Notes under the pieces: model-generated
Databases searched by the model: none
What the model saw: the letters and a program-made list of their open reading frames with translations, nothing else
Told to the model about the DNA's origin: nothing
Made by a program: the position numbers and the translations under genes
Virus record (IMG/VR): IMGVR_UViG_3300032163_000007
Location: 1-21,586 of that record
DNA length: 21,586 bases
From: a virus
Direction: 5' to 3' (one strand)
Shown here: in pieces, positions 615-14,284 of the stretch
Numbering within the stretch: the stretch's first letter is position 1
Layout of the letters: every line of letters starts with the position of its first letter

Positions 615-1895
615 GTGGTTAGCGCAGACATCCAACAAAAAATCGACAGCCAGAGCGAATTCTATCTATCCTCGATGTCAACCCTAGGATCTCTGGGACT
701 AAATAAGATGTCCCTACAGATAGTAGATTTTCTAAACAAGCTAACAGACCCAGATGTGGTTTACTTTTTTAGAGGATCTCCTGATGATCAGATCATGTCT
801 ATTCCATCGAAATCGTCAGTCACTCAAACTCGAGGGGGCTTTTGGGTGGAGGATTTTGGATTAGGAGCTAACGAGATAAAGTTATCAGGTACCACAGGGT
901 ATAAGAGGATGTCTTTAAATGGAAAGCAGCAAGATGGTAAGGAAAACTTTGAGCAGCTTCTAATGATATACCAGAAATACAATGATATTAGAAGGGAGCG
1001 ACGAGATGCCGTTCCTAGTGTAGATGATCCTAGAGCTATTGTGCTAGTCCTTTCCATAGGTATAGATGATAAGACTCTTATAGTACACCCAACAAACTTC
1101 GTAATTAAAAAGTCTAAGAGTCAGCCTCTACTCTATTACTATGATATATCGTTTGTAGTATTAGGAGACTATGCTACCTACCGGTACGCAGGTAGAACAT
1201 ACGATCCCCTAGCCTCCAAGATATATGATGGAGAGGCTCGAAGAAGCTTAATTGCTTCTGCGATGGATGGCATTATGAAAGGCATTATGACCTATCCTGA
1301 CAGCCTTAGAAGTCCTGAGTTGACAAGTAAGCTGTCTGAGGTACCTAGCCTGGGTACCGCAATTGATAAAACAAAGAAGAGTGCTACTATAGGAGTGGGT
1401 AACTTGACTGAAGGTGGAAAAGTGACAACTGAGCAGGTATCTTCGGAGAGCTTAAAGGTACTTGTTTATACTATGCCACGTAATGCAGCTTCTGCGAACG
1501 ACCCAATAAATAAAAAGGTGTTGAGTCGTGGTCAGTTAAATGTACTCACTTACGAGAAAAGCAAAACTAGCTTGCAAGGCCTAAATCTTTCTGAGTTTAA
1601 CGCAGAGAGTCCAAAGAGTAAGCAGAAATGGACTACAAATGGCGTGAAAGACTTCGTAGGTGGGCTAGGAGGAGCTATCTCTGGAATGACCGCCGCAATA
1701 AACACGGGGGCCTCTGTCGCAAAGAACGAGATGGGAGCCACTTTTGGAATTATACGTACAGCGCGGCAGCTCCAGACTTGTGTAATGTCCCTGATCAAGT
1801 ATCCAGAGCTCTTTACACAGTCTCTAGAGAATAAGTTTAATCAGGCTATAAGTTCTCAGAGTGGATGCTCTACTACGTTAGGATTGGAAATATAA
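615..1895 (+). CDS. Virion protein, probable tail/baseplate hub or tube-end component
   Basis: This 426-residue protein starts at GTG 615, chosen because AAAGGAG at 601-607 lies seven bases upstream. Residues 71-96 carry a GGFWVEDFG...LSGTTGY pattern. In phage tail proteins a 'GGxxxxDxGxG...ISGTTG' strand pair like this is common near the start of a tube-like or jelly-roll domain. Residues 140-190 continue as beta strands (IVLVLSIGIDD, LYYYDISFVVLGDY). The C-terminal third, about residues 340-410, changes to a Gly/Ala-rich helical segment that could be a shaft or membrane-interacting region. It is followed, in TAATG overlap, by the LysM/gp25 fusion gene, an order that fits a baseplate hub or distal-tail protein. 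The family is not recognised with certainty and function is inferred from context. Confidence 0.6.
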   Translation: MVSADIQQKIDSQSEFYLSSMSTLGSLGLNKMSLQIVDFLNKLTDPDVVYFFRGSPDDQIMSIPSKSSVTQTRGGFWVEDFGLGANEIKLSGTTGYKRMSLNGKQQDGKENFEQLLMIYQKYNDIRRERRDAVPSVDDPRAIVLVLSIGIDDKTLIVHPTNFVIKKSKSQPLLYYYDISFVVLGDYATYRYAGRTYDPLASKIYDGEARRSLIASAMDGIMKGIMTYPDSLRSPELTSKLSEVPSLGTAIDKTKKSATIGVGNLTEGGKVTTEQVSSESLKVLVYTMPRNAASANDPINKKVLSRGQLNVLTYEKSKTSLQGLNLSEFNAESPKSKQKWTTNGVKDFVGGLGGAISGMTAAINTGASVAKNEMGATFGIIRTARQLQTCVMSLIKYPELFTQSLENKFNQAISSQSGCSTTLGLEI

Positions 1896-3361
1896 TGCTA
1901 GCGACAGTTTCAAGATATATCGTTAAAGCGGGGGATACACTCCCAAGTATAGCAAAAGAGGTTTATGGAGATCCTGCGACCTGGTCACGAATAGCTCAGT
2001 TTAACCAGCTGGACTACCCATATATAGCGGTAGAGGATACTAGTGCAAGAGCTAGGGGGTATGTTACAGTATATAGAGATCCCACATATCTTACGGAAAA
2101 TCCTCTTGACGACATAGTGATTCCCAGCAACACCATGTTTACTGCTAGCTCAGATGGGGGTACTAAGACCTACGAGCTACAGACAAAAGCTAGTGTGACT
2201 TTCGTTAGCTGGTTACCTCTGATAGAATTACCTATTGTATGCACAAGTTATGGTATATTTGGGGAAACCCCAGCATCCACCATTGTAGCTCTCTCTACCC
2301 CTATAAGTAAGGTTAGTTCTATTATAAATAGCGAGCCTGTAACTTTGTACCCTACATATATAAGGGCAGTGGGAGAGATAGACGTTTCAATAATAGGGAC
2401 ACCTCCAACAACATTCAATCAAGGAATGATCCTCTCAACAACCTACTCGCAAAACACCCAGACGGACATTAGATACTATCAAGTTACAGAGGATGTAGTA
2501 GGAGGTACTACGAATACTCTGCCTGTGCGTGCGATGGAATCGGGAAATGTTGGAAACGTACCTCCTGACTCCATAAATACAATCAACTTCTACACGCCAC
2601 AAATAAAGGTTGCTTCTATTGACGCAACGCATAAAAAGGTGTATCTTACATCAAATAAACATGGAATTACAGCAGGTAGTAGCTTTAGGTTAGCAGAAAC
2701 CCTAGGCAACGATGGAGTATACTTGTGTGCAAGTGTAAGTTTAGATGGTAGTACCATCACTCTCAATTCTGCAGGTGGTGATTTGATCACACCAGAGAGT
2801 GATAACGGCACAATACAAAAAATGCCCTCCTTTATGGAGTATGTCGCCAGCGTAAGTAACGCAGATGCTATCTCCAATGGTGTTATTTTAAAGGTTGCAG
2901 CATTAGGGAATATTCTTTATATTCCCGCTATGAGTGCTACGACTAATACACCACCATCAGAGCTTGAGGCAGATGTGTACATTCGTAGGCTTAAGCAAGA
3001 TATCTTTTTAGACCCTGATGGAGATATTGCGATAGATGTAACGGGGGATATTCGAGTGGTAGAAGGTTTATCCAATATAGAGCAAGCTCTTCGGATAAGG
3101 CTATCTAGTAACGTTGGATCCCTAACGCATCACCCAGAGTATGGATCCCTTGTACACAGATTTATAGGGAGCTTAGGGAATGCAATTAATCTTATGATAA
3201 TTAAAAAAGAAATTATTAGAACGCTTCGTGCAGAAGAGAGAGTAGCAAGAATAGATGATGTGCGGCTAACTTTTGCGAACAGAACCTTAGACATCCGCAT
3301 ATACGCTACAATCATAGGTAGTGATGATATCCAGAATATAGCGTTTTCAATAAATCCCTAG
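1895..3361 (+). CDS. LysM + gpJ-like + gp25 (GpW/gp25) fusion baseplate protein
   Basis: The start at ATG 1895 shares the TAATG overlap with the upstream stop and has AGGA at 1880-1883; an ATG at 1865 would overlap by 31 bases and is less likely. The product has 488 residues. Residues 8-39 are a LysM fold (YIVKAGDTLPSIAKEVYGD...WSRIAQFNQ), as seen in the T4 gp53 type and in PBSX tail proteins. Residues 74-230 look like the front part of baseplate protein J, with IPSNTMFTA and GNVGNVPPDSI. Residues 235-308 form a small beta domain of the 'HGL' type (KHGITAGSSFRL). Residues 365-480 match the GpW/gp25 baseplate wedge family: FLDPDGDIAID, GLSNIEQALRIRL, HPEYGS, then LRAEERVARIDDV. It likely contributes to the inner wedge joining the hub/tube to the outer baseplate. 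Domains other than the gpJ-like part are clear. Confidence 0.85.
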   Translation: MLATVSRYIVKAGDTLPSIAKEVYGDPATWSRIAQFNQLDYPYIAVEDTSARARGYVTVYRDPTYLTENPLDDIVIPSNTMFTASSDGGTKTYELQTKASVTFVSWLPLIELPIVCTSYGIFGETPASTIVALSTPISKVSSIINSEPVTLYPTYIRAVGEIDVSIIGTPPTTFNQGMILSTTYSQNTQTDIRYYQVTEDVVGGTTNTLPVRAMESGNVGNVPPDSINTINFYTPQIKVASIDATHKKVYLTSNKHGITAGSSFRLAETLGNDGVYLCASVSLDGSTITLNSAGGDLITPESDNGTIQKMPSFMEYVASVSNADAISNGVILKVAALGNILYIPAMSATTNTPPSELEADVYIRRLKQDIFLDPDGDIAIDVTGDIRVVEGLSNIEQALRIRLSSNVGSLTHHPEYGSLVHRFIGSLGNAINLMIIKKEIIRTLRAEERVARIDDVRLTFANRTLDIRIYATIIGSDDIQNIAFSINP

Positions 3362-3370
3362 GAGGAATAG

Positions 3371-4756
3371 ATGGCTTTTACTATTAAGAACTTTGAGCAG
3401 ATATCCTACAGTATGATTAACTGGATGCATAATGCTGCTCCCAATATATCAGACTTTTTTGTAGGTAGCGTAGTAAGGACTCTTTTAGAGTCTGTTGCGA
3501 TGGAGTTAGATGAAATTTATTGGAGGACTTACAACTCTCTTACGGAAGCACAGTCAGAGGGTGTGTATAGTGCATTCGACTTTCCAAGAGAGCCTGCGAA
3601 AGAGGCGACAGGGTTTGTTACACTGATTGCAACAAGCTCTGGATCAGACATATCTATTCCAGCAGGTACAACATTTAACACTCAGGGGTCTGAGAATAAT
3701 CCAGAGGTTCTGTTTAAGTCTATGGCCTCCACATTCTTATACAGAGGCACAGGTGTAACAGAGCAGATATTATTCCACGCAGGTACTACGGCGTATGCTC
3801 CAGCGCAGAGACGTGTAAACACAGGAGTAGCTACTACCATGTTCGCTCACTCTGCGGGATTATTCCAAGAGCTACTTGAAGGAACTGACTACACTATAGA
3901 CACTACCAGCTCCACACAGAACTATATCGTGTTTACCAATACGATTCTCGTAGATGACAGCACATACTTTACATTTACATATACACCTCTTAGTGCGGAG
4001 GTTCAAATTATATGCACACAGACGGGGGAAGTTGGTAATGTCGGAGCAGGTACTATTACAAGTATGAAGTCACCTATTACAGGAGTTGCTTCACAGTATA
4101 ACTATGAGTCTTTTTCTAGTGGGGCAGGAGTGGAGTCGGATAGTGCTAGAAAGAGCCGATTTTCCTTATTTATTGGAGGATTATCCCGTGGGACTCTTGA
4201 TGCACTTAACTACGCGATATTTTACAGAACAACACAGTTTAAAGTATTCTCAGCGTTTATCCAAGAGAACTCCCCCATTCCCGGGTTTATTAAAATATAC
4301 ATCGCCGATAGTACTGGGTTTGCAAGCGATGCTATGAAGGCAGATGTTTTGGCAGCTATTGAGCCATATAGGGGTGCAGGAATTATTATAAACGTGGATA
4401 GTCCCACTAAAGTTCTTATAGATGTGGAGTGTAAGTTAAGGCTTAAAAATGGGTTCAATAAAGACATCATTATAGCCCAAGTCGGATCGGCTTTAAGTGA
4501 TCACTTGAGCAAGTATAGTTACTTAGATAATGGGGACTACTCTACCGTGTACCTCACTAATTTAGACTATATAGTAAAGGGTATGCGTCCCGAGGCCATT
4601 ATTGAGGCAGACATATCCTTTAAGAGGCAGACCGATGCTTGGTTAAATCCAGGTGACCCACTCACTCCTAGGCTAATTGAGGATATCATCCCAATTACAA
4701 ACGGTACAATTGCGGAGATATTTAGACCTGGTACTATTGGAGTTACCTCTTGGTAG
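3371..4756 (+). CDS. Baseplate protein J-like (gpJ / gp6-type wedge)
   Basis: This 461-residue protein starts at ATG 3371 behind an excellent AGGAGGA at 3360-3366. The N-terminal helix region (residues 10-60, ending LESVAMELDEIYWRTYNS) is the usual gpJ start. It is followed by ISIPAGTTFNTQG at 94-106, TGEVGNVGAGTI at 218-229 and GVESDSARKSRF at 253-264. These are the standard landmarks of the baseplate J family, whose members form the wedge ring that changes shape during tail contraction. Length is normal for the family. It sits between the gp25-containing gene and the gpI-like gene, the conserved gp25-gpJ-gpI order of P2-like and related contractile tails. Confidence 0.92.
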   Translation: MAFTIKNFEQISYSMINWMHNAAPNISDFFVGSVVRTLLESVAMELDEIYWRTYNSLTEAQSEGVYSAFDFPREPAKEATGFVTLIATSSGSDISIPAGTTFNTQGSENNPEVLFKSMASTFLYRGTGVTEQILFHAGTTAYAPAQRRVNTGVATTMFAHSAGLFQELLEGTDYTIDTTSSTQNYIVFTNTILVDDSTYFTFTYTPLSAEVQIICTQTGEVGNVGAGTITSMKSPITGVASQYNYESFSSGAGVESDSARKSRFSLFIGGLSRGTLDALNYAIFYRTTQFKVFSAFIQENSPIPGFIKIYIADSTGFASDAMKADVLAAIEPYRGAGIIINVDSPTKVLIDVECKLRLKNGFNKDIIIAQVGSALSDHLSKYSYLDNGDYSTVYLTNLDYIVKGMRPEAIIEADISFKRQTDAWLNPGDPLTPRLIEDIIPITNGTIAEIFRPGTIGVTSW

Positions 4757-4760
4757 GCTC

Positions 4761-5795
4761 ATGTCTATAGCATATGAAATTAAGAATATTCTGGGGTTTG
4801 CAGGGGAAGGCGAAGCTACTCTAGTTTGGGGAGAGCCTTTAGACTCTGACAACGTAACAAACTATTTTTATAATAGGTATGATGCCGTAGGAGGCAACTC
4901 GGGATGGATTCCTCTGGGCAGTAAAGAAGTCCTTAAGTCTATAAACTTAGGTGGTGCTGGTGCAAACTTCCTCTTATATAAGTTTAATAATCTTACCAAT
5001 GACACAGTGTATACTTATAGGATAGCAGCAGCCTCTCTCGGCTCTTCTGACATATTTTTAGATGCAAACTGTATAAGTACATACATAACCCCTTCTAGTA
5101 TAAAGAATGGGGAACCTTCTCCTGAGAGGTTGATGCGAGGCCTAGACACCAGTATCTTTAAGACTTCATCAGACTCTACTTTGTACAAAATATTTTATAT
5201 CCTAGCTATACACATAAGAGACTTCTACCTTGATTTAGGTAATGAGGCGCTGCCCCAATTAAATATATTAACAAGCACCGGAGAGTACGTTGACAACTGG
5301 GGATTTCTCTTTGGAATGAATAGGCAGCGTTTCGAGCCGGATCAGATTTATGCTGCACGTATTGTTAAAGGGATCCTAATAGAGAAGTGCACTCCTCAAG
5401 GCATTATTAAGGCTTTGACCCCTTATTCAGTAGTAGGAGTACCTGTTCAAGTAATTGATGGATCCAAAGATTACACTAGGTTTGTTTTTGATGCCTCTGT
5501 TTTGGGGGGACCTCCTACAGCTGATGGAGTCAGTCTTGATTTCGATCCTTATGCAATAGCGGGGTATATTCCAGGAACACCTGTTGGTTTTGTGGAGGAT
5601 GGTGTCTTGACTTATTCTCCACTCTTTGGAGACACTTTTGGTGGTATTGGTCTTGACAGCTTTAGTTTCATAGTAAGGCTCAGACCTATTGCTATAGGAT
5701 CTCCAGCTACTACAGCCAACACCCTAAGCATAGTATCCGAGATACTTCGAAAGTACCATATGGCAGGAACATCGTTTGAAATACAGACTATTTAG
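4761..5795 (+). CDS. Tail protein I-like wedge protein with N-terminal FN3-like domain
   Basis: I place the start at ATG 4761, five bases after the gpJ stop; the frame is open further upstream but that would overlap gpJ by 80 bases. The product has 344 residues. Residues 10-112 look like a fibronectin type III-like beta sandwich (EATLVWGEPLDSDNV, NNLTNDTVYTYRIAAAS). Residues 120-235 resemble P2 gpI/YmfQ-type tail proteins: a helical segment (LYKIFYILAIHIRDFYLDLG), TGEYVDNWGFLFGM, then a block ARIVKGILIEKCTPQGIIKALTPY that is typical of the group. The C-terminal part is beta rich. GpI-type proteins join baseplate wedges to tail fibres, which fits the fibre gene immediately downstream. The ribosome binding site is weak (TAGG at 4754-4757), so translational coupling to gpJ is likely. 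Confidence 0.8.
   Translation: MSIAYEIKNILGFAGEGEATLVWGEPLDSDNVTNYFYNRYDAVGGNSGWIPLGSKEVLKSINLGGAGANFLLYKFNNLTNDTVYTYRIAAASLGSSDIFLDANCISTYITPSSIKNGEPSPERLMRGLDTSIFKTSSDSTLYKIFYILAIHIRDFYLDLGNEALPQLNILTSTGEYVDNWGFLFGMNRQRFEPDQIYAARIVKGILIEKCTPQGIIKALTPYSVVGVPVQVIDGSKDYTRFVFDASVLGGPPTADGVSLDFDPYAIAGYIPGTPVGFVEDGVLTYSPLFGDTFGGIGLDSFSFIVRLRPIAIGSPATTANTLSIVSEILRKYHMAGTSFEIQTI
5160..5177 (+). repeat. 18-base exact direct repeat, copy 2 (coding)
   Basis: This is the second copy of AAGACTTCATCAGACTCT, inside the gpI-like gene at residues KTSSDS (134-139), just before its helical segment. Flanking bases differ from copy 1. Confidence 0.75.
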
Positions 5796-5801
5796 AATAT
5801 A

Positions 5802-5813
5802 GGATGATAATTA
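5802..5813 (+). promoter_or_regulatory. 12-base motif GGATGATAATTA, copy 2 (candidate regulatory element)
   Basis: This copy lies in the 34-base gap before the first fibre gene and ends five bases before its GAGGA ribosome binding site (5819-5823). It is identical to the motif at 579-590. If the GATAAT acted as a -10 box the leader would be only about 12 bases long, so an RNA-level or other role is equally possible. Confidence 0.3.
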
Positions 5814-5829
5814 GGAAAGAGGATATTTA

Positions 5830-7917
5830 ATGACGAAAAATTGGCCAATTGATAGTAACCACTTTAACAATAGTGGTAATGTTTATAGTCTTAGACGCAA
5901 GTATTTTTTTAGTGATAAGAACACAGATACATTTGATGTAAATAATCACTTCTCTAGATCTGCTTACTCTCTACAAAACTTCTCCTCTATTCGAGAAGGT
6001 CTTGACTTCCGTGTGGCTACTTCAAGTTCCGTATCCTTTGGATTTGGCTCATTCATGCACTGCGTGGATGGGAGTGTATTTAGTCAACCCATAAAAAATA
6101 TAAGCAACGTGGGATACCTATCCAGTGTGGATCATAACAGTAGCACAATACACGTAGGTCCCCTATATGATGTGCCTATGCAGTCTTACGACAATACGAA
6201 AGTATTTGCATTTCACTCCCTAGTAGGACTATCTACGTACCCTGCAGGGATGTCTGATCCTGTTTACGGAACAGTGACGGTAGATAATCCAGCAGTATAT
6301 TTGGCTTCAGATTTTGGTAATGATCAGGATTATCGCACTCCTTATATAAGTGTTACTCCGTTCGTGGCAAATCAAATTAACATGTCCGGTCTAACTGCAG
6401 GTGCTAACTATGATCTATATGTAGACTACACACCAGATGTAACGGCTACTTGGGATGCCATTCCCAATCAGAACTACACGGTAGCTAGTGGGGGTTCAAC
6501 AACAATACTCAAAGCCAGCGCTTCTACTTTCCTTCCGGGAGACATTGGCAAATGGGTAACCATTCGTACAGGGACTTACGCAGGGAAAAAGAGACAGATC
6601 GTATATTACATAGACAATCAGCATGTAGAGATAGAGGCGTTACCTGGTATACCAGCTGACGGAGTTCTGTTTTATGTGCATAGAGGTCAAGCACTACTCC
6701 CCACTCTCGCTAATAGTCCCCGATATGATGTTATAGGTATTAAGAAGAAAACATATGAAGTAAAAAAGAATGTTCAAGGCGTAGACTCAACAGGAATGCC
6801 TACTGTAGCTCCAGAGACTGCAAGATACTTCTCAACTTTCCAATTAGTGGTACAAGAGGGAGTCATACCTGTAGATGGTGGAGCTTCTATCAGTCCTTCA
6901 ACTCCTCTAGGATACCTCACTGCCGGTGACTTTATTCCTCTGGGTCTAGTTATTGCCACCAACACAGGTATAACTTTCATAAACCAAAAATTCCCTTGGA
7001 TATCCATGTTTAGAGAGCGCGGTCTTCAAACAGCCAACCTTCTTGCAAATAGCAGCTTTGAGACATGGCCTTCAACAAATCCGGATAGATGGACAGCGGT
7101 AGCAGGAGCTACTATTACTAAGGGGACACCTAGAATAGGTAGTAACTCAGCAAAAATTGTCACTACAAGCGCTCAGAACTGTATGTTCCAAACTGGTAGC
7201 CTTTCTCAAGTGGGTATTCATGTGGGAGACTGTATCTTGTTTAGCGCTTGGATGAATTCAACTGTAGTGCTTCCTGTGGGAAGGCTCCGTATGGTAATCA
7301 CCAGTAACTCCAGTAATAGCGATGCAGGTGCAGTTAAACTAGATATACATTCCAGTGATAGTATTAAATATGATGCTAACAGCAGCGGTTTTACCACGGT
7401 TACTTGTCGCGCTAGTATCCCAGTAGATGCTGGGATCGTTCCCACCGATTATATATTCTTTTACATAGAGGCATTACAAACTACAGGAGCTGGGTACTTT
7501 CAGGTAGATGACTGTGTAGCTTTTAAAATAGGTAGTATGTATAATGGTATGTATACTGCTAGCAGCGGTTCTGCTACCCTATTAACGGGAGACGTAATTG
7601 TAGCTGGGGATCTCTCGGCAAACGCCATCTCTGCTGCAAAAGATCTAACTGCCAATAATTTCCACTCTTATACAGGAACATTATCTGCAGGTGGTAACTG
7701 GCTTCCATTAGGAACTTATTTTTATCAGGATATCACAGGGATTTATGGGTCATCTCCCTCTAAGCGAAATGCCTTCATTCCCTCTTTTGTGGATAGTGCA
7801 ACAAATAAGGTAGTAGAAGTTCACGACATAGAAACAACTGACGCTAATGGTAATACAATCAGAGTATGGGTAACGGATAACACTAAGACCCTTATTTACA
7901 CAATAATTAAGGTATAG
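5830..7917 (+). CDS. Tail fibre / receptor-binding protein with carbohydrate-binding-like domain
   Basis: This 695-residue protein starts at ATG 5830 after GAGGA at 5819-5823. The N-terminal 400 residues are beta rich and have no motif I can assign, though residues 1-130 may attach to the baseplate. Residues 403-568 look like a CBM4/9-type jelly roll: NLLANSSFETWPSTNPDRW at the start, GSNSAKI, then CILFSAWMN, and FQVDDCVAF at the end. Such modules bind sugars and are common in phage fibres. Residues 575-612 (LLTGDVIVAGDLSANAISA) match the repetitive 'v.agdlsanai' linker often found before C-terminal fibre tips. The final 80 residues are a beta-rich tip. It lies just after the gpI-like gene, as expected for a fibre anchored on that protein. 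Confidence 0.8.
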   Translation: MTKNWPIDSNHFNNSGNVYSLRRKYFFSDKNTDTFDVNNHFSRSAYSLQNFSSIREGLDFRVATSSSVSFGFGSFMHCVDGSVFSQPIKNISNVGYLSSVDHNSSTIHVGPLYDVPMQSYDNTKVFAFHSLVGLSTYPAGMSDPVYGTVTVDNPAVYLASDFGNDQDYRTPYISVTPFVANQINMSGLTAGANYDLYVDYTPDVTATWDAIPNQNYTVASGGSTTILKASASTFLPGDIGKWVTIRTGTYAGKKRQIVYYIDNQHVEIEALPGIPADGVLFYVHRGQALLPTLANSPRYDVIGIKKKTYEVKKNVQGVDSTGMPTVAPETARYFSTFQLVVQEGVIPVDGGASISPSTPLGYLTAGDFIPLGLVIATNTGITFINQKFPWISMFRERGLQTANLLANSSFETWPSTNPDRWTAVAGATITKGTPRIGSNSAKIVTTSAQNCMFQTGSLSQVGIHVGDCILFSAWMNSTVVLPVGRLRMVITSNSSNSDAGAVKLDIHSSDSIKYDANSSGFTTVTCRASIPVDAGIVPTDYIFFYIEALQTTGAGYFQVDDCVAFKIGSMYNGMYTASSGSATLLTGDVIVAGDLSANAISAAKDLTANNFHSYTGTLSAGGNWLPLGTYFYQDITGIYGSSPSKRNAFIPSFVDSATNKVVEVHDIETTDANGNTIRVWVTDNTKTLIYTIIKV

Positions 7918-7926
7918 GAGTAATAA

Positions 7927-9339
7927 ATGCAAGTAATAGGCAAACGTGAGCAGCGCTCAACATTGAATTACCCCTTTGATTTAAGTGGTACCAGCACTTG
8001 GGGTAACACAAGCAATCTTCCTGAAGCTAGATTTGATGCAGCTTTATGTTATGACTCTCTTAACGCTAGACTTATTATAGGAGGTGGCCGTACAGACGCT
8101 ACCTATACTGCTCTTGCTACAACAAAGGTGTCCTATGATGGAGTTACTTGGGCAGCAGGACCGTCTTGCGCGGGTCTCTATGGGCATAAGATGGTTCAAT
8201 TTGGTAATGATCTTTGGGTTACTGGTGGACATACCTCAGGTGGAGATGTTAGAAATAACATAGCTATATCTGTTGGGGGCACGGCTAGCTTCACAGATAA
8301 CTTAGGTGGGTCTGGCATGACTGTAGCCAGAGGCTACCACGGCTCAGTAGTATTCAATGGTAAGCTATATGTTATTGGTGGAGAAGGTTCTGGTGGGAGC
8401 TATCTTAATTCTATCTCTTATAACTCCTCATACCCAGCAGCTTTTACTACCGTTACCCCAGCAGCTATGTGGGCAGGTAGAAAAGGACTTGGCTGCATAG
8501 TATTTCAAGGCAAGGTATGGGTAATCGGAGGACAGACTGGAAGCAGCGCCTATGACAACCAAATATGGTGGTCAAGCTCTCCAGAAACTAGCTGGACTCA
8601 GGTAACTCCGGTTGTAACAGGAGGGTCTCTATTTGGAGGCAGATCCGGCATGTCCTTATTTATATATAATGGGAAGATGTACCTGTTTGGTGGTTTTAAT
8701 GGCACTACATACCTGTCTGACCTGTATAGTACAGTAGATGGAACAAATTGGGTTGTAGAATCGGTATCTGTCACAGGTCTCGCAGGAGCTGGGTATGCGT
8801 CTGCATTAACGGCTTTTTCGAACCAGATATTTTACATGGGTGGGATCACAGGAACAAACGCATCTCCAACATACACAGGAGCTGTTTGGACCTACCCACA
8901 AGACCAGCAAGCCACTTATGGGAACCTACACGTAGTAGGTACCATGCATGCAAAGAAGCTTTGGAGCTACGCTATTGGAGCATACTACGCAGACTTGGGA
9001 GAGTACTTTTACTGCGATGAGAACTTACCTAATGGTACTCCTGTGTCTATCATAGGATATCGAAAAGTAGGTAGGTACAACGGAAAGAACTTTGCTGGAA
9101 TTATAACTATAAACTCTGGTGTGTACATGGGAGAAGACCTTAAAGGATTACCTAACACAGCACTAGTGGGACTTGCAGGTACCGTGTCTATGTGCGTTGA
9201 TGATCCTTCTATTGAGACTGGGGATGAGATTACTGCAGTAGGCTTTGAGTTTGTTAAGAAGACGAAAGAGACCCAACCAGTTCTAGCTATAGCTCAAACT
9301 TCCTATAACAAGGGTAGCGTTATAGTCTTAAAGACCTAG
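7927..9339 (+). CDS. Six-bladed Kelch propeller adhesin with C-terminal Peptidase_G2-like domain
   Basis: This 470-residue protein starts at ATG 7927, six bases after TAGGAG; that site overlaps the previous stop codon. Six Kelch units are visible, each ending in a double glycine near residues 52, 100, 151, 201, 255 and 305 (LIIGGG, LWVTGG, LYVIGG, VWVIGG, MYLFGG, IFYMGG), with aromatic and Trp residues between. The set is complete for a six-bladed beta propeller. Residues 330-345 (YGNLHVVGTMHAKKLW) echo the linker of the preceding fibre. Residues 350-470 contain YYADLGEYF, a GD-E-I turn and a final VIVL strand, like the Peptidase_G2/intramolecular-chaperone ends of some phage fibres; I do not see proof of self-cleavage. 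It is most likely a second host-recognition protein. Kelch propellers bind sugars or proteins. Confidence 0.8.
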   Translation: MQVIGKREQRSTLNYPFDLSGTSTWGNTSNLPEARFDAALCYDSLNARLIIGGGRTDATYTALATTKVSYDGVTWAAGPSCAGLYGHKMVQFGNDLWVTGGHTSGGDVRNNIAISVGGTASFTDNLGGSGMTVARGYHGSVVFNGKLYVIGGEGSGGSYLNSISYNSSYPAAFTTVTPAAMWAGRKGLGCIVFQGKVWVIGGQTGSSAYDNQIWWSSSPETSWTQVTPVVTGGSLFGGRSGMSLFIYNGKMYLFGGFNGTTYLSDLYSTVDGTNWVVESVSVTGLAGAGYASALTAFSNQIFYMGGITGTNASPTYTGAVWTYPQDQQATYGNLHVVGTMHAKKLWSYAIGAYYADLGEYFYCDENLPNGTPVSIIGYRKVGRYNGKNFAGIITINSGVYMGEDLKGLPNTALVGLAGTVSMCVDDPSIETGDEITAVGFEFVKKTKETQPVLAIAQTSYNKGSVIVLKT

Positions 9340-9364
9340 ACCACTACAACCAAGGAGTCGTAAT

Positions 9365-9949
9365 ATGACATTTAGTTGGACAAACACCAATACTCCCTGC
9401 AGTCGAAATAGTGCAAATGGGAATAACCCCTCGCCTGTTGCTACGACAAGTATAGCTAAAGCTGCAGATCTTAATGAGGTCAGATCAGCTGTAGAGGGAA
9501 TCTATGGCTACTACCACGGCAAAGATGTAGCCTGCCCAGTTGCTCCCTCTTGGGATGGTGTAATGGCTTCTGCAGTGGCTGGAAATATTGTAAGCGCCTC
9601 CCATATAAATGAGCTGAGATATGCAGTAAACGCGCTACGTACTACTTACAACGTCTGTGACTGTAATGGTCCTCATTGCTACGATCAAGGCAACTGTAGC
9701 AGTGGTTATTGTTGCTGGAATTGGTGTAATCCACAGGATAGAGATCGAAGATACTCTTATTTTGGGCAGCCAGGAGCATTTGCTTGGACTGGCTCTGATC
9801 CGGAGAGTGATGTGAATCCTAAGCGAGTAGGAGCATCAAAGCCCGTATCAGCAGGTGCTATACAAGAACTAAGAAATGCCATCGACACAATGAACAACGC
9901 CAGTACCTGGGGTGGCAGACAGAGTTCAGGAAATAACCTAACATTCTAA
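9365..9949 (+). CDS. Cysteine-rich protein with three ELR repeats; candidate radical SAM substrate
   Basis: This 194-residue protein starts at ATG 9365 after AAGGAG at 9352-9357. It contains three related units: AKAADLNEVRSAVEGI (31-46), VSASHINELRYAVNAL (76-91) and VSAGAIQELRNAIDTM (161-176). Each follows a stretch with W, in units 1 and 3 as FSWT and FAWT. Units of this 'F-W-T ... V-x-A-x-x-x-N-E-L-R-x-A-I' type occur as tandem modules in phage and bacterial surface proteins. Between units 2 and 3 is a Cys-rich loop with C98, C100, C105, C111, C116, C117 and C121, seven cysteines in 24 residues; C12 and C57 lie elsewhere. No signal peptide is visible. The radical SAM gene begins 11 bases downstream, so the loop may be modified by it. 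Alternatives are a metal-binding or disulphide knot. Position after the adhesins suggests a virion protein. Confidence 0.75.
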   Translation: MTFSWTNTNTPCSRNSANGNNPSPVATTSIAKAADLNEVRSAVEGIYGYYHGKDVACPVAPSWDGVMASAVAGNIVSASHINELRYAVNALRTTYNVCDCNGPHCYDQGNCSSGYCCWNWCNPQDRDRRYSYFGQPGAFAWTGSDPESDVNPKRVGASKPVSAGAIQELRNAIDTMNNASTWGGRQSSGNNLTF

Positions 9950-9960
9950 AAGGGAAATTT

Positions 9961-11361
9961 ATGTACACTTGGGCCACGCTCAACCTAACGAATCAATGCA
10001 ACCTTTCTTGCACTTACTGCTTCGAGAGAGTGAGGAACGCGAAAGCCATGTCTTTTGAGGAAGCCAAAGACATTATCGATGAGCTTCTTTCTCATAATGA
10101 CGGAAAGACTCCTCTCAGTTTGTGGCTATTTGGCGGGGAGCCTACTCTTGTTCCAGAGCTAACAGTAGAAATTATACACTACATTAATGAGACCACTTCT
10201 ATAAGAAAGACTTTTTTAGGTGTTGTTATGTTTACTAATGGACTACTCTGGTCCCAAGATATAATTGATGAAATGTTAAAAAGCTCCGGCTACACCTCCT
10301 ACAACATACAAATATCTTACGATGGAGACTCAAATTCAGCACGAGATCGAGGAAACCTAGCACTTAGAACGGCTACGGAACAAAACATGTTAAAGTATAT
10401 AGATTCTGGGTTAAAGGCTACTATACGGTCTACAATAACTCCAGAAAGCTATGTTCCAGGGACACTATACAACCTGCTACAGCTCTCCCATCAGATTGGT
10501 ATATCTTTTGCAGCGAACTTCCTATCTGAGGCTTTCTCTTATTCTCCAGAAGTGGTAGAGGCCATTAAACAGGATCATGAAAGATGCGCTGAGCAGATTT
10601 TGGAATGGTACCGCGCAGATGATTTGGGGGAGTATGTATTTTATAGCTTTGACCCTCGCATATTTTATAATGACTCAGAAAAAGGCTGCTCAGTTACTCA
10701 AGGTAACGCCGTTAGTTTTTTACCAGGAGACCCCACCGAATATGTTTGTAACTACGCTGCGAGTCATCCTGAAGCGGAGTTTCGAGTTAAGTCTGAATGT
10801 GCCACATGTGATGTTCCAGGTTGTAACCTATGCGGGTTGCAGGAGTCTGTTGAGGGTCCTCTTGATGAATCATTCTGTGACTTCAAGAAAATGATATACA
10901 GGGATGTTTTGCTAAAGTTTAGAGATGACCTTATCAAAGAGGGGTTGGCATTTATTCCCAAAGAGGACGACCTTTTTGTAATCCGTATGCTAGAGAGTAC
11001 TTTTGCATTTTTATATCCTCTGCGCCCAGAGCATATGGGGACCTTTATGCCTAATCTACCCCCTCCTCACCATTTTCGAAGTCTCAGTGAGTACTTGAGA
11101 CATACTGCATTCGTATTATTGGACCTAGCTCAAAGTATTTTGAATAGGGAAGGACTTCTCAGAGAATTAGGAGTTGACATTCAAACCAAAGACGATGTAT
11201 ACTCGTACTTAACGTATTTAGTAGGGCAAGTCATCAGTTTTAAGTATGCTACTCCGGACGCTAAGTTCATTAAGTTAGATACTTTTGACGCAATTACCCT
11301 GATGTTTATGTTGTTAGAAGCGACGAAGCCCTTAGAGACTGTAAAAAGTAATGCAGCATGA
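9961..11361 (+). CDS. Radical SAM enzyme with SPASM-type auxiliary-cluster domain
   Basis: This 466-residue protein starts at ATG 9961 after AAAAGGGA. Residues 13-20 read CNLSCTYC, the CX3CX2C motif that binds the [4Fe-4S] cluster of radical SAM enzymes. LFGGEP at 56-61 is the GGE motif that contacts SAM, and VVMFTNGLL and IQISYDG are later barrel strands. The second half has C243, C263, then C280-x2-C283-x4-C288-x2-C291 and C306, the spacing of a SPASM domain with two auxiliary clusters. Enzymes of this group modify ribosomally made peptides (thioether, C-C or C-O crosslinks, quinohaemoprotein maturation) or sulfatases. Residues 320-466 are a helical extension I cannot assign. The partner is unproven, but the cysteine-rich gene immediately upstream is the obvious candidate. 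The Cys ligands make the enzyme class secure; the substrate is inference. Confidence 0.9.
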   Translation: MYTWATLNLTNQCNLSCTYCFERVRNAKAMSFEEAKDIIDELLSHNDGKTPLSLWLFGGEPTLVPELTVEIIHYINETTSIRKTFLGVVMFTNGLLWSQDIIDEMLKSSGYTSYNIQISYDGDSNSARDRGNLALRTATEQNMLKYIDSGLKATIRSTITPESYVPGTLYNLLQLSHQIGISFAANFLSEAFSYSPEVVEAIKQDHERCAEQILEWYRADDLGEYVFYSFDPRIFYNDSEKGCSVTQGNAVSFLPGDPTEYVCNYAASHPEAEFRVKSECATCDVPGCNLCGLQESVEGPLDESFCDFKKMIYRDVLLKFRDDLIKEGLAFIPKEDDLFVIRMLESTFAFLYPLRPEHMGTFMPNLPPPHHFRSLSEYLRHTAFVLLDLAQSILNREGLLRELGVDIQTKDDVYSYLTYLVGQVISFKYATPDAKFIKLDTFDAITLMFMLLEATKPLETVKSNAA

Positions 11362-11379
11362 AAGCATAATTAAAAAGAG

Positions 11380-13446
11380 ATGTTAGTACCAGCACTATAT
11401 TTTAAACGAGTAACGAAGTACTTTCCAGCACTACTTAAGAAGTATGAGGGGCAAAAGAAGGATTCGGGTCCTCTAGTTCACAGATACGTCTATAAAGAGA
11501 TGAACGCTAGTGGTGAATGGGATTATATCTATCCTGAGGACTTACAGCGTATGGAGAGAGAAAAGGGTCCTGAGCTTGACAAGTTCCAAAGAAGTAAGAA
11601 CTATAAGTCAAATATGCGCCGCATACAAAAGCTTCAAGAGGAACAGAAGCAGAACCCAGCAAAATATGAAGAGAATAAGTTATTGGCTAGTACTCAGAGA
11701 GCCGAAGAGCCTCCTCCTAAGATATCTCCTGCAACTTTAAAAGCAAAGAAGCTTGAGTATGGCATGGATCCAGATGCTACTGCTACCTGGTTTGTAGATA
11801 CTGAGACAGGAGAAATCCGTCCAGTTATGAGGGAGCACGAAGATGTTCCTGCTGACCGTAGAGGGATACAGATACTTCCTGGAGATATTATAAAATATGA
11901 CCAGACCAAAGCGGCACATTATACTAAAGCGGAAAAAGGCGAAGATGGCAACTTTAAGAATCCTGCGGGCAAGGCAAAGAGTACTGAGGGCATATTTATG
12001 GGTCAATCTGAAGACGATCCAAATATGGCAGTAGTAGCTGTACACAGCGGAAACAGAAATGGAAAATATCTGGTTCCTATGAGTAGTATCAAACACCATC
12101 TAACACATCCTGAGAAGCATGCCGAGAAGCAAAAGGAGGTTCAGGCAACTGCAGCTTATAAGAAGAATTTAAAAGAGAGCTTGTGGAAGAAGGAATATGG
12201 ATCCCCGGGGATGTCCGTAAAAGAAATAGATGCACTCTTCCTGGCTCAGCCCGAGATAAGCGGTGGAGAGAGAACTACTACCGACCCAGAGACCGGAGAA
12301 ACAAAGACAGTGAAGATTCAGGGAATAATTCCTAAACTAGAGAACAGGCTTAAAAAGATTTTCTATCTATCAGACTTTGCCAAGAATGAGCTTACTGGAT
12401 ACTTACAGGATTTCTGCACAGACTCTTCAAAAACTCAACTAGTTAGATTGGCTTCACAGAGGGAGTCTGAGGGCTATGTAGATGAGGAGACAGGAGAAAC
12501 TGTAGAGGGTACAGGAGCTCCAGCAGCTGGTATTAGTAATAGGGTCATGACTAGACGCGCTAAAGGCATCATTGACCATCTCAATAATACGCAGACGCAC
12601 GCGCTAGCTGGTTGGTGTAAGGAAGTTATCGCAGGGAAATTTGGTATGTCCGAGTTCACTGGAGACGATATGCACAACACTATACGCTATATGAAGGTAC
12701 TTCAAGAGCTTCAGGCGAAAAACGTCGGGGATGTTACGAAGCTACCTATGAAGGCGAAGGCTGAGGGTCTCAAGCAGTCTATGATAGATAGGTTCCATGG
12801 AACCATAGCTAAACACACGAGAACGCTTGATAACGCCTTCACAGATATAGGCACTAACTACGACCCCGAAGTAAAAGCAGCAGCTAAAGAGAAGCTAAAC
12901 GGGTACATAGCCAAGGCTAAGGTAGCTATAGAAAATCTCGATAAGAAGCCTATTAGTTACTTCGAAGATCTAGTAACAACATACGACCGCTACGTATCCT
13001 TTAAGCAACTCAGTGACATAAATTCCGCCGAGGGTGTTGGTGACAGGAATATAGAGGTGTCCAACTCTATGTACGAGGGAGCAAGCGGCAGGGACACTAG
13101 AAATAAGAAGGCCCTAGAGCACTTTCAAAAGTATCTGCCTAAGATTAAGACACTTCTTCAGGGTACTGGAATGACTGAAGCACAGGTCCAGAGACTCGTT
13201 GACTATCATACAAGCTTAGACACGGGTCAAACGGAATATGAACCCTGGCAGGGCTCGGACGCGGAAGCAGCCCTTACAAAAATAGGGAAAGAGCATCCAG
13301 AGACTATGGACACCCTTAACGAGCTGATAGCTCAGGGCTTGAATCTGGCTGCAGATAAAGACAAAGACCTTTACGGTGAAGACTTCGAAGATGAGGATGA
13401 GTATGACAGTGACTTCGATCCAGCTGACAACACATCTTCTTATTAA
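11380..13446 (+). CDS. Unrecognised 688-residue protein, charged, with acidic C-terminal tail
   Basis: Start ATG 11380 is the only reasonable one, but its AAGAG abuts the ATG, so initiation looks weak and coupling to the radical SAM gene 18 bases upstream is likely. Residues 30-52 (VHRYVYKEMNASGEWDYIYP) resemble the 'xYxYKxxNxxGxWxYIYP' opening seen in many large phage proteins of unknown role. A charged helical stretch follows (55-125). Residues 165-237 look like a small beta barrel (PGDIIKYD, VVAVHSGNRNGKYLVPMSSI). Three short D-x-E-T-G-E turns occur at 140-145, 302-307 and 368-373. The rest is helical, and the last 30 residues are strongly acidic (YGEDFEDEDEYDSDFD). It sits between the radical SAM gene and the replication block. 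I cannot assign a function; virion interior, DNA-associated or polyvalent roles are all possible. Confidence 0.7.
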   Translation: MLVPALYFKRVTKYFPALLKKYEGQKKDSGPLVHRYVYKEMNASGEWDYIYPEDLQRMEREKGPELDKFQRSKNYKSNMRRIQKLQEEQKQNPAKYEENKLLASTQRAEEPPPKISPATLKAKKLEYGMDPDATATWFVDTETGEIRPVMREHEDVPADRRGIQILPGDIIKYDQTKAAHYTKAEKGEDGNFKNPAGKAKSTEGIFMGQSEDDPNMAVVAVHSGNRNGKYLVPMSSIKHHLTHPEKHAEKQKEVQATAAYKKNLKESLWKKEYGSPGMSVKEIDALFLAQPEISGGERTTTDPETGETKTVKIQGIIPKLENRLKKIFYLSDFAKNELTGYLQDFCTDSSKTQLVRLASQRESEGYVDEETGETVEGTGAPAAGISNRVMTRRAKGIIDHLNNTQTHALAGWCKEVIAGKFGMSEFTGDDMHNTIRYMKVLQELQAKNVGDVTKLPMKAKAEGLKQSMIDRFHGTIAKHTRTLDNAFTDIGTNYDPEVKAAAKEKLNGYIAKAKVAIENLDKKPISYFEDLVTTYDRYVSFKQLSDINSAEGVGDRNIEVSNSMYEGASGRDTRNKKALEHFQKYLPKIKTLLQGTGMTEAQVQRLVDYHTSLDTGQTEYEPWQGSDAEAALTKIGKEHPETMDTLNELIAQGLNLAADKDKDLYGEDFEDEDEYDSDFDPADNTSSY

Positions 13447-13477
13447 AGTAAGCTTTTAATAATTTATAGAATCAGGT

Positions 13478-14284
13478 ATGCCAAAAAAGAATTTAGGAGT
13501 AACCTATAAGTTAATGCCATGCTCTATGGAGGAGCATGAGGGTGTTAAGCAGATGATACTCTTTTATAGAGATCTGATTCAGAGAAGATTTAGGGTCAAT
13601 GTCTATGGGTTTTTGAAGAAGAACCTCAGAGAAATGAAGTCTTGGAACAAGCTATACTTATCATATAAGTGGCTAAAAGAGGAGGGTATAAATGTTAAGG
13701 AATATTGGCAGGTGGTTGTACATAACTTTGAGCCGAGTATCTTCAAACATGCCTATCCTTTTCTAATTAACGCAAAGGCTTATGAAGGCCTTTACATTAG
13801 TGGAGTAGATCTCACAAAAAGAGAAAACGGAGGAGCCAACTCTACTAAATTCTCGTCTAGTTTCCATGTTACACTCAAGGTGATAGGTAGAGACCTTATA
13901 ACACTTAAAAAGCTTAAGATATCGAATAAAGCGATGGCTGACACTGATATAATGCTAGACTTCCTAGGCTTCTTCACCAATACCTTCATATTGTCAGATT
14001 TAACCTTATTTATAGCTCTAGCAGAGCAACCAAAGCTGTTCGAAAGTTACTTTTTGGATTTACACAGGCGTAAAGATATCAAGCTACTTCATAATAGGCT
14101 GTTCTATGATCAGGTAGAGTATGATAAGCTCGTTGAGTACCGAAAGATCATGGAAAGCTACATTGATCAGCGCATTGATACTGAACGAGATATGTATTTA
14201 TTAAATCCGTCGGGATTTTTGATAGGATTACAGAACGATCTAGAGGAGGTCAATTATATGATTAGTGAGGCACCATGCAAGTAA
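13478..14284 (+). CDS. Unrecognised 268-residue protein upstream of the helicase
   Basis: I take ATG 13478 as start; the ribosome binding site is poor (CAGG directly upstream), and ATG 13514, with AGGAG at 13495-13499, is an alternative although the spacing is long. The product is helical and basic, with many Lys, Tyr and Phe residues, and has no motif I recognise. It overlaps the DnaB-type helicase gene by ten bases. Proteins in that place in other phages are sometimes helicase loaders or replication-initiation factors; that is a positional guess, since I see no Walker motif or known loader signature. This gene begins the replication block after the 31-base gap at 13447-13477, where nothing else is evident. 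Confidence 0.65.
   Translation: MPKKNLGVTYKLMPCSMEEHEGVKQMILFYRDLIQRRFRVNVYGFLKKNLREMKSWNKLYLSYKWLKEEGINVKEYWQVVVHNFEPSIFKHAYPFLINAKAYEGLYISGVDLTKRENGGANSTKFSSSFHVTLKVIGRDLITLKKLKISNKAMADTDIMLDFLGFFTNTFILSDLTLFIALAEQPKLFESYFLDLHRRKDIKLLHNRLFYDQVEYDKLVEYRKIMESYIDQRIDTERDMYLLNPSGFLIGLQNDLEEVNYMISEAPCK
14242..14250 (+). promoter_or_regulatory. Strong internal ribosome binding site before an in-frame ATG and the helicase start
   Basis: TAGAGGAGG at 14241-14249 is an excellent Shine-Dalgarno sequence inside the end of the 268-residue gene. The ATG at 14258 is in frame with that gene and would yield only MISEAPCK before its stop at 14282-14284. The helicase ATG at 14275 lies just inside this short frame and has its own GTGAGG at 14265-14270. 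The arrangement fits ribosome loading followed by coupled initiation of the helicase. Confidence 0.4.

Follow-up and report, generated by a model that had tools for sequence, protein, structure and literature searches.

Cysteine-rich ELR-repeat proteins paired with radical SAM/SPASM enzymes in phage tail modules: a possible route to chemical modification of tail proteins

Introduction

Why should a small cysteine-rich protein be encoded beside a radical SAM/SPASM enzyme within the tail module of a phage? The question is raised by a stretch of 21,586 nucleotides (the window), part of an 85,586-base virus record (IMG/VR IMGVR_UViG_3300032163_000007), in which a short reading frame, gene A, is followed by an enzyme gene, gene B. 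The initial annotation likened the two genes to the precursor and maturase of bacterial RiPP loci, and proposed that the phage cross-links or otherwise modifies a tail or virion protein, possibly an adhesin. Pairing of radical SAM enzymes with cysteine-rich products is already known from RiPP biosynthesis and from the CXXX-repeat system. Published explanations of phage radical SAM genes treat them as accessory genes for metabolism, iron-sulphur functions or quorum sensing (PMC2853527, PMC5332604, PMC10773633), and in pelagimyophages radical SAM cassettes are found in a host-recognition cluster (PMC7029224).

The gene pair and its tail-module setting

The pair lies in a contractile-tail module, whose components include a tail-tube initiator, gp25/baseplate J, a second baseplate J protein, and a Kelch propeller protein whose gene sits just upstream of gene A. 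The genes closest to the question are as follows.

5830–7917, + strand: 695-aa presumed tail or receptor-binding protein (position only)
7927–9339, + strand: Kelch propeller protein, likely a fibre or receptor-binding protein, its role taken from position (Pfam Kelch, 2.5e-30; PHROG_6427, 2e-7)
9365–9949, + strand: gene A, an ELR/Cys protein of 194 aa, presumed substrate and tail-associated protein (ORF, Cys count, ELR motif)
9961–11361, + strand: gene B, a 466-aa radical SAM/SPASM enzyme, presumed maturase of gene A (Pfam, PHROG, NCBIfam, fold match)

The tail-module placement made in the initial annotation is thus well founded, and so is its remark that no protease, transporter or immunity gene accompanies the pair, none being detected by Pfam among the neighbouring window genes scanned (615–14281). 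Its description of two upstream receptor-binding proteins is supported for one of them by the Kelch match; the 695-aa protein has no family match in Pfam or PHROG, and the assignment otherwise depends on position alone. The baseplate J protein is a distant relative, at about 30% identity, of its counterparts in SPO1-like and related phages, and no close relatives of the neighbouring baseplate protein are present in IMG/VR.

Several other features of the virus genome were recognised by eye. Queuosine-pathway-like genes (QueD-, QueE- and FolE2-like) lie at 55638–59211, and an anaerobic ribonucleotide reductase and its activator at 34779–37847 and 73125–73823; these two sets of genes, of which only the radical SAM members were checked further, suggest modified DNA and a host able to grow without oxygen. 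At 78017–79741 an intein-like (HINT) ORF comes after two ThyX-like pieces, an arrangement that looks like an intein or mobile element in a thymidylate synthase. The same phage has a TROVE/Ro60-like protein (62884–64341) and an RtcB-like RNA ligase (50189–51385). A second small Cys-dense protein, encoded outside the tail module (80820–81119; 99 aa, 13 Cys, with CxxC pairs), is likely zinc-binding.

Gene A is an ELR-repeat protein with a cysteine loop

The recognisable parts of gene A are three copies of a 20-residue motif, here called ELR repeats, and a cysteine-dense loop.

9452–9511, + strand: ELR repeat 1, residues 30–49, IAKAADLNEVRSAVEGIYGY (10.9 bits; AF2 helix 33–52, pLDDT ~80–85)
9587–9646, + strand: ELR repeat 2, residues 75–94, IVSASHINELRYAVNALRTT (27.4 bits; AF2 helix 78–100, pLDDT ~83)
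9656–9727, + strand: Cys loop, residues 98–121, CDCNGPHCYDQGNCSSGYCCWNWC, presumed modification site (Cys density)
9842–9901, + strand: ELR repeat 3, residues 160–179, PVSAGAIQELRNAIDTMNNA, 3′ of the Cys loop (11.0 bits; AF2 helix 163–183)

Cysteines are found at residues 12, 57, 98, 100, 105, 111, 116, 117 and 121, and the count of seven within the 24 residues 98–121 that first drew attention to the gene is exact. Such a density arose in only 6 of 20,000 shuffles of the protein, and elsewhere in the 85.6-kb virus it is reached by one other ATG ORF among 180. The spacing within the loop is irregular (2, 5, 6, 5, 1, 4), and the segment contains neither a CX3C repeat nor a tandem repeat, the latter a common but non-defining feature of the relatives described below (it is lacking also in loci L108 and L119). 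The loop had been placed between two ELR repeats; it does lie between repeats, but there are three of these, and it falls between the second and third.

The ELR motif was trained without gene A, on a non-redundant set of 76 Cys-dense proteins in which the Cys segments had been masked. Summed over the three repeats, gene A scores 49.2 bits, a value reached by none of 2000 shuffles and by none of 1964 other (non-Cys) ORFs. The position of the loop is also shared. In CxC-type relatives the Cys segment opens with C-x-C-[ND] after an ELR helix (with a gap of 0 in 27 of 62), and the corresponding junction in gene A is C98-D-C100-N, three residues past the ELR 20-mer. The nearest designs are those of L108 and L119, which have ELR repeats, an irregular Cys region and adjoining radical SAM genes; in L108 the ELR/Cys gene comes after that for a central tail fibre J protein. 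The top phmmer matches of gene A are likewise mostly ELR/Cys phage proteins. Judged by its sequence, gene A belongs to a phage ELR/Cys protein family.

In the AlphaFold model, which is poor overall (mean pLDDT 58.6), the ELR repeats are helical, the first two at a pLDDT of around 80. The Cys loop is poorly modelled, mean pLDDT per 10-residue block being below 50 from residue 101. With this poor model, Foldseek gave no match among viral structures at E ≤ 0.001. No family was matched in Pfam, PHROG or NCBIfam, and Pfam detects no C-terminal Peptidase_S74. No close relatives of gene A were found in IMG/VR or among the 50,697 phage records searched, and a DNA pattern for window-like loops (CDCN..HCY) recovered six stretches, all without an ELR or radical SAM partner.

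Gene B resembles peptide and protein maturases

Gene B begins eleven bases downstream of gene A, as originally stated, the gap (9950–9960) reading AAGGGAAATTT. Three of its regions are of particular relevance.

9997–10020, + strand: CX3CX2C motif (C13, C17, C20) for the SAM-cleaving [4Fe-4S] cluster (sequence; invariant in 30 relatives)
10687–10878, + strand: SPASM-type region (C243, C263, C280, C283, C288, C291, C306), presumed auxiliary clusters
10918–11358, + strand: C-terminal helical extension, residues 320–466 (alignment; low-confidence helices)

These motifs, together with a GGE motif at residues 58–60, are present as annotated, and the seven SPASM-type cysteines occupy nearly invariant columns in a 30-sequence alignment of phage relatives; there is an additional cysteine at C209. 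The C-terminal extension is missing from nearly all aligned relatives. Membership of the superfamily is clear (Pfam Radical_SAM, 2e-12; PHROG_1802, 9e-24), and gene B falls far under the cut-off of every NCBIfam maturase model: the top one is PapB (NF047865), at 79.7 bits against a cut-off of 340, and TIGR04115 gives 47.8 bits against 350. No close relatives were found in IMG/VR viral contigs, and with none for gene A either in the collections, co-occurrence of the two genes within the same lineage cannot be assessed.

The predicted structure has a mean pLDDT of 71, residues 1–325 being the better part, and these residues match CteB most closely (Z 26.6 over 310 residues). Further matches are ChlB (Z 23.3), anSME (22.5), TigE (22.2) and SuiB (19.1), with weaker ones to the epimerase EpeE (13.9) and to QueE (11.5). 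In the model the first barrel strand is already at residue 4, leaving no space for an N-terminal RiPP recognition element. On the strength of this predicted fold gene B is of the radical SAM/SPASM type that modifies peptides or proteins, not bases or tRNA. Clustering with DNA-base or tRNA-modifying families had been named as grounds for discarding the original proposal, and the fold comparison (CteB 26.6, QueE 11.5) points away from such families. It could still be argued that gene B modifies phage DNA or RNA and adjoins gene A by chance, since this phage has queuosine-type pathway genes that include a radical SAM QueE-like protein. We give this hardly any credence: the QueE-like (56138–56806) and NrdG-like (73125–73823) radical SAM proteins of the virus are encoded by separate genes, gene B is closer to peptide maturase folds than to QueE by 8–15 Z units, and its pairing with a Cys protein is recurrent.

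The pairing recurs in many phages

A first clue to this recurrence came from weak matches of gene B in cultured and gut phages, where Cys-repeat proteins lie beside radical SAM genes: a 534-aa protein with CDCNYCTC repeats in Campylobacter phage IBB_35, and a 193-aa protein with CSGxC repeats in one gut phage. IMG/VR was therefore surveyed with a DNA pattern for C.C.YC.C.C.YC. The in-frame matches are proteins of about 120–530 aa composed of ELR-like helices and CTCNCNY heptads, and many of the heptad proteins end in a tail of the form SDxRLKxNI...VMAQEL...VDYSKLP. In four of ten relatives scanned (L024, L025, L083 and L107) Pfam identifies this tail as Peptidase_S74, an endosialidase chaperone known from the ends of fibres and spikes in phages. 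The relatives lie among tail-fibre or minor-tail genes, and many have two to four radical SAM genes. Across the family the substrate Cys designs include CTCNCNY heptads, CX3C tracts, CICNSDC and irregular arrangements.

There are several indications that the association is not fortuitous. First, of the 46 viral records that encode a true Cys-repeat/ELR protein, 42 have radical SAM genes of PHROG_1802, against none of 43 control records, in which the same DNA pattern occurs out of frame or in low-complexity sequence; the controls are mostly shorter, which weakens the contrast but does not remove it. In the four records without an enzyme the Cys gene is at or near a contig end or the record is short, and L268, which encodes a close relative of the Cys protein in these exceptions, has a radical SAM gene 3 kb away. 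The Cys protein is thus not regularly found without the enzyme, a pattern that would have counted heavily against the original proposal. Second, the association holds in reverse. When 77 loci were fetched by a radical SAM alignment led by gene B, with no Cys criterion, 69 proved to have, no more than 4 kb away, a gene whose product contains at least 7 Cys per 30 aa; in the control loci (349 kb, 465 ORFs) no ORF reaches this density. Not all 77 loci are independent, some being near-copies or from records of the first survey, and a few of the 69 are possibly false (L166 is an antisense Arg-rich frame). Among the eight loci without a Cys-dense gene are contigs that are short or truncated, two Campylobacter phages with the Cys gene elsewhere in the genome, L144, and L141, a bacterial-looking CXXX cluster with a 49-aa peptide shorter than the length cut used.

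Third, in the enzyme tree CX3C substrates go with one clade, which includes the TIGR04115 reference, and a single change separates the CxC and CX3C labels. Enzyme and substrate therefore co-vary in the phage family. Gene B itself is on a long branch (2.0) outside the CX3C-substrate clade; its placement is unsupported, and a sub-family assignment from the tree was dropped. Bacterial genomes contain at least 119 stretches with the heptad pattern, and among the matches listed two are real ELR/Cys proteins with a radical SAM gene (L234 and L268), both on MAG contigs that are possibly phage; the others listed are apparently of low complexity or in the wrong frame.

These data bear on whether the Cys loop of gene A is merely a tail-protein element that forms disulphides or binds metal in the ordinary way, the substrate of the radical SAM enzyme being elsewhere. 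Cys clusters of tail fibres could indeed bind metal or form disulphides, and the phage encodes another small Cys-rich protein (80820–81119, 13 Cys). We nonetheless think this explanation unlikely, as the pairing recurs across divergent phages with varied Cys designs, enzyme clades track the design, and no control ORF has an equal Cys density.

Three further arrangements were seen. Three or four tandem ELR/CTCNCNY paralogues lie beside three radical SAM genes in L035 (4721–7285) and L114 (9203–11260), possibly reflecting diversification of a modified fibre. At L144 (2652–3119 and 4383–11740) the protein encoded next to several radical SAM genes is of ELR type but nearly lacks Cys; the substrate may be elsewhere, or modification may not need Cys in every case, which may count against Cys as a universal target. 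In some gut phages the genes for the CX3C protein and the radical SAM enzyme are separated by a small one of about 95–115 aa, possibly for an adaptor or recognition subunit.

L176 7616–7909; L118 7524–7871; L169 7601–7924; L011 5624–5908: small gene in CX3C gut phages

Cultured phages carry unrecognised versions of the pair

The pair is present, unrecognised, in two groups of cultured phages, the Campylobacter CP220 group and the Erwinia/Salmonella SPN3US group. In Campylobacter phages CP220 and CPt10, CPT_0180 is an ELR and CTCDCNY-repeat protein whose gene adjoins an RNA ligase/tail fibre attachment gene, with a SPASM enzyme about 2 kb off. The genome paper of 2010 reported a 21-bp coding repeat and 11–12 radical SAM genes separately, judged the radical SAM module to be metabolic and non-essential, and drew no link to the repeat (PMC2853527). 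The Cys repeats of CP220, CPt10 and IBB_35 are long, whereas the Cys segment of the window phage is short.

In the SPN3US group of jumbo phages (Salmonella SEGD1 and Erwinia Kwan) an annotated virion structural gene is followed by two tandem radical SAM genes, and the CX3C-repeat ORFs that lie in between, upstream of the tandem enzymes, are either omitted from GenBank or annotated in the wrong frame. These ORFs, which have a short MAISLKEL helix, lie at 3060–4190 of both L299 (Kwan, NC_031010, at about 143.3–144.4 kb of the genome) and L298 (SEGD1, KU726251); in SEGD1 the first CX3C-repeat copy is apparently divided over two frames.

Relationship to known systems

The closest parallels are the PapB/freyrasin ranthipeptide maturases (NF047865) and CteB (PDB 5wgg/5why), radical SAM/SPASM enzymes likewise encoded beside a Cys-rich ribosomal product. 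PapB forms Cys-Asp/Glu thioethers and accepts Cys-Xn-Asp with n of 0–6 (PMC9413430), and Asp at residues 99 and 107 of the gene A loop is within this spacing range of Cys. There are clear differences: gene B aligns to the PapB model over residues 6–188 only, its barrel starts at residue 1–4 and it has the C-terminal extension, and its putative substrate is a 194-aa tail-module protein and not a short precursor. The anSME enzymes are similar in acting on a residue within a full-size protein, but there is no sulfatase substrate beside gene B, which adjoins a Cys-cluster protein instead.

Gut phages that pair CX3C substrates with TIGR04115-like enzymes (that of L011 scores 300.6 bits against the cut-off of 350) connect the phage family to the bacterial CXXX-repeat system (TIGR04115 maturase, TIGR04117 target), and the two are thus related in part; the phage substrates differ in having an ELR domain and in lying within tail modules. 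As these CXXX-repeat systems are the nearest cellular pairing (L012 scores 630 bits with TIGR04115) and L141 resembles a bacterial cluster, it might be supposed that the pair makes a phage-borne RiPP, a peptide cleaved and released against the host or competitors and not part of the virion. We consider this very unlikely: besides the lack of protease, transporter or immunity genes beside the window pair, gene A continues beyond the Cys loop into a third ELR helix, and several of the relatives have a terminal Peptidase_S74 domain and tail genes as neighbours.

A proposed mechanism

We think it likely that gene B encodes a radical SAM/SPASM maturase and that its substrate, modified after translation, is the product of gene A, which would be a structural protein associated with the tail; both the substrate role and the virion location are inferred. 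The ELR helices would serve both as the scaffold recognised by the enzyme and as the part seated in the tail, and the Cys loop following the second helix would be the unfolded target. A 5′-deoxyadenosyl radical, generated by gene B from SAM with the help of its [4Fe-4S] cluster, would abstract a hydrogen atom from a loop residue, and the auxiliary SPASM clusters would assist in joining Cys sulphur to carbon. The resulting thioether cross-links would stiffen or protect the short loop on the tail, and a rigid, protease-resistant tip or joint is plausible. The product is probably thioether cross-links in the Cys loop, an inference by analogy made because CteB is the closest fold and PapB the best family score, and without mass-shift data.

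It is possible, though on balance we doubt it, that gene B modifies gene A by some other radical reaction, such as epimerisation, oxidation of Cys or Ser of the kind seen in anaerobic sulfatase maturation, or the formation of carbon-carbon (cyclophane) bonds with conserved Asn, Tyr or Trp. The fold matches include anSME (22.5), SuiB (19.1) and EpeE (13.9) as well as CteB, Asn and Tyr are nearly as conserved as Cys in the heptad relatives (CTCNCNY), the two to four radical SAM genes of many relatives suggest several reactions, and the L144 ELR protein is almost free of Cys. Set against this, the closest solved fold and the top family scores are of thioether-forming types (CteB, PapB), and Cys density is common to nearly all of the substrates.

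Maturation of gene A by gene B also faces more general objections. First, there is neither a mass shift nor virion proteomics, and adjacency is no proof of substrate use. Second, most relatives have Cys repeats, whereas the Cys loop of gene A is short and does not repeat. Third, neither gene has a close relative in the collections, and gene B, a long branch of unsupported position, falls well short of each NCBIfam maturase cut-off. Modification of a tail or virion protein, as initially suggested, thus gains support from the recurrent pair, the tail genes and Peptidase_S74, but its chemistry and virion location are unproven, and an adhesin has not been demonstrated.

Significance

Since many unrelated phages share the pairing, those that carry it probably alter their tail proteins chemically, by cross-linking or in some other way. 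We incline to a broader proposal, held a little less firmly than that for genes A and B: that many unrelated tailed phages share a so far unrecognised virion maturation pathway, with dedicated radical SAM/SPASM enzymes introducing cross-links into the Cys repeats of tail or fibre proteins built on an ELR scaffold, and that the substrate designs have diversified along with matching enzyme clades. A general viral maturation pathway has, in our view, a fair chance of being correct. In the literature covered, which lacked preprints and most subscription journals, we found no paper that connects a phage radical SAM enzyme with a tail protein; as far as could be found there, such pairing on ELR-scaffold proteins of phage tail modules is new. 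The presence of the pair in cultured phages makes the idea testable. Should phage radical SAM enzymes indeed serve to make cross-linked tail proteins, this would amount to a new form of virion maturation and to a viral analogue of RiPP biosynthesis, with a virion part as its product. Such a role would fit the location of phage radical SAM genes in tail modules, including the cassettes of the pelagimyophage host-recognition cluster, and would provide a large natural library of enzyme/substrate pairs.
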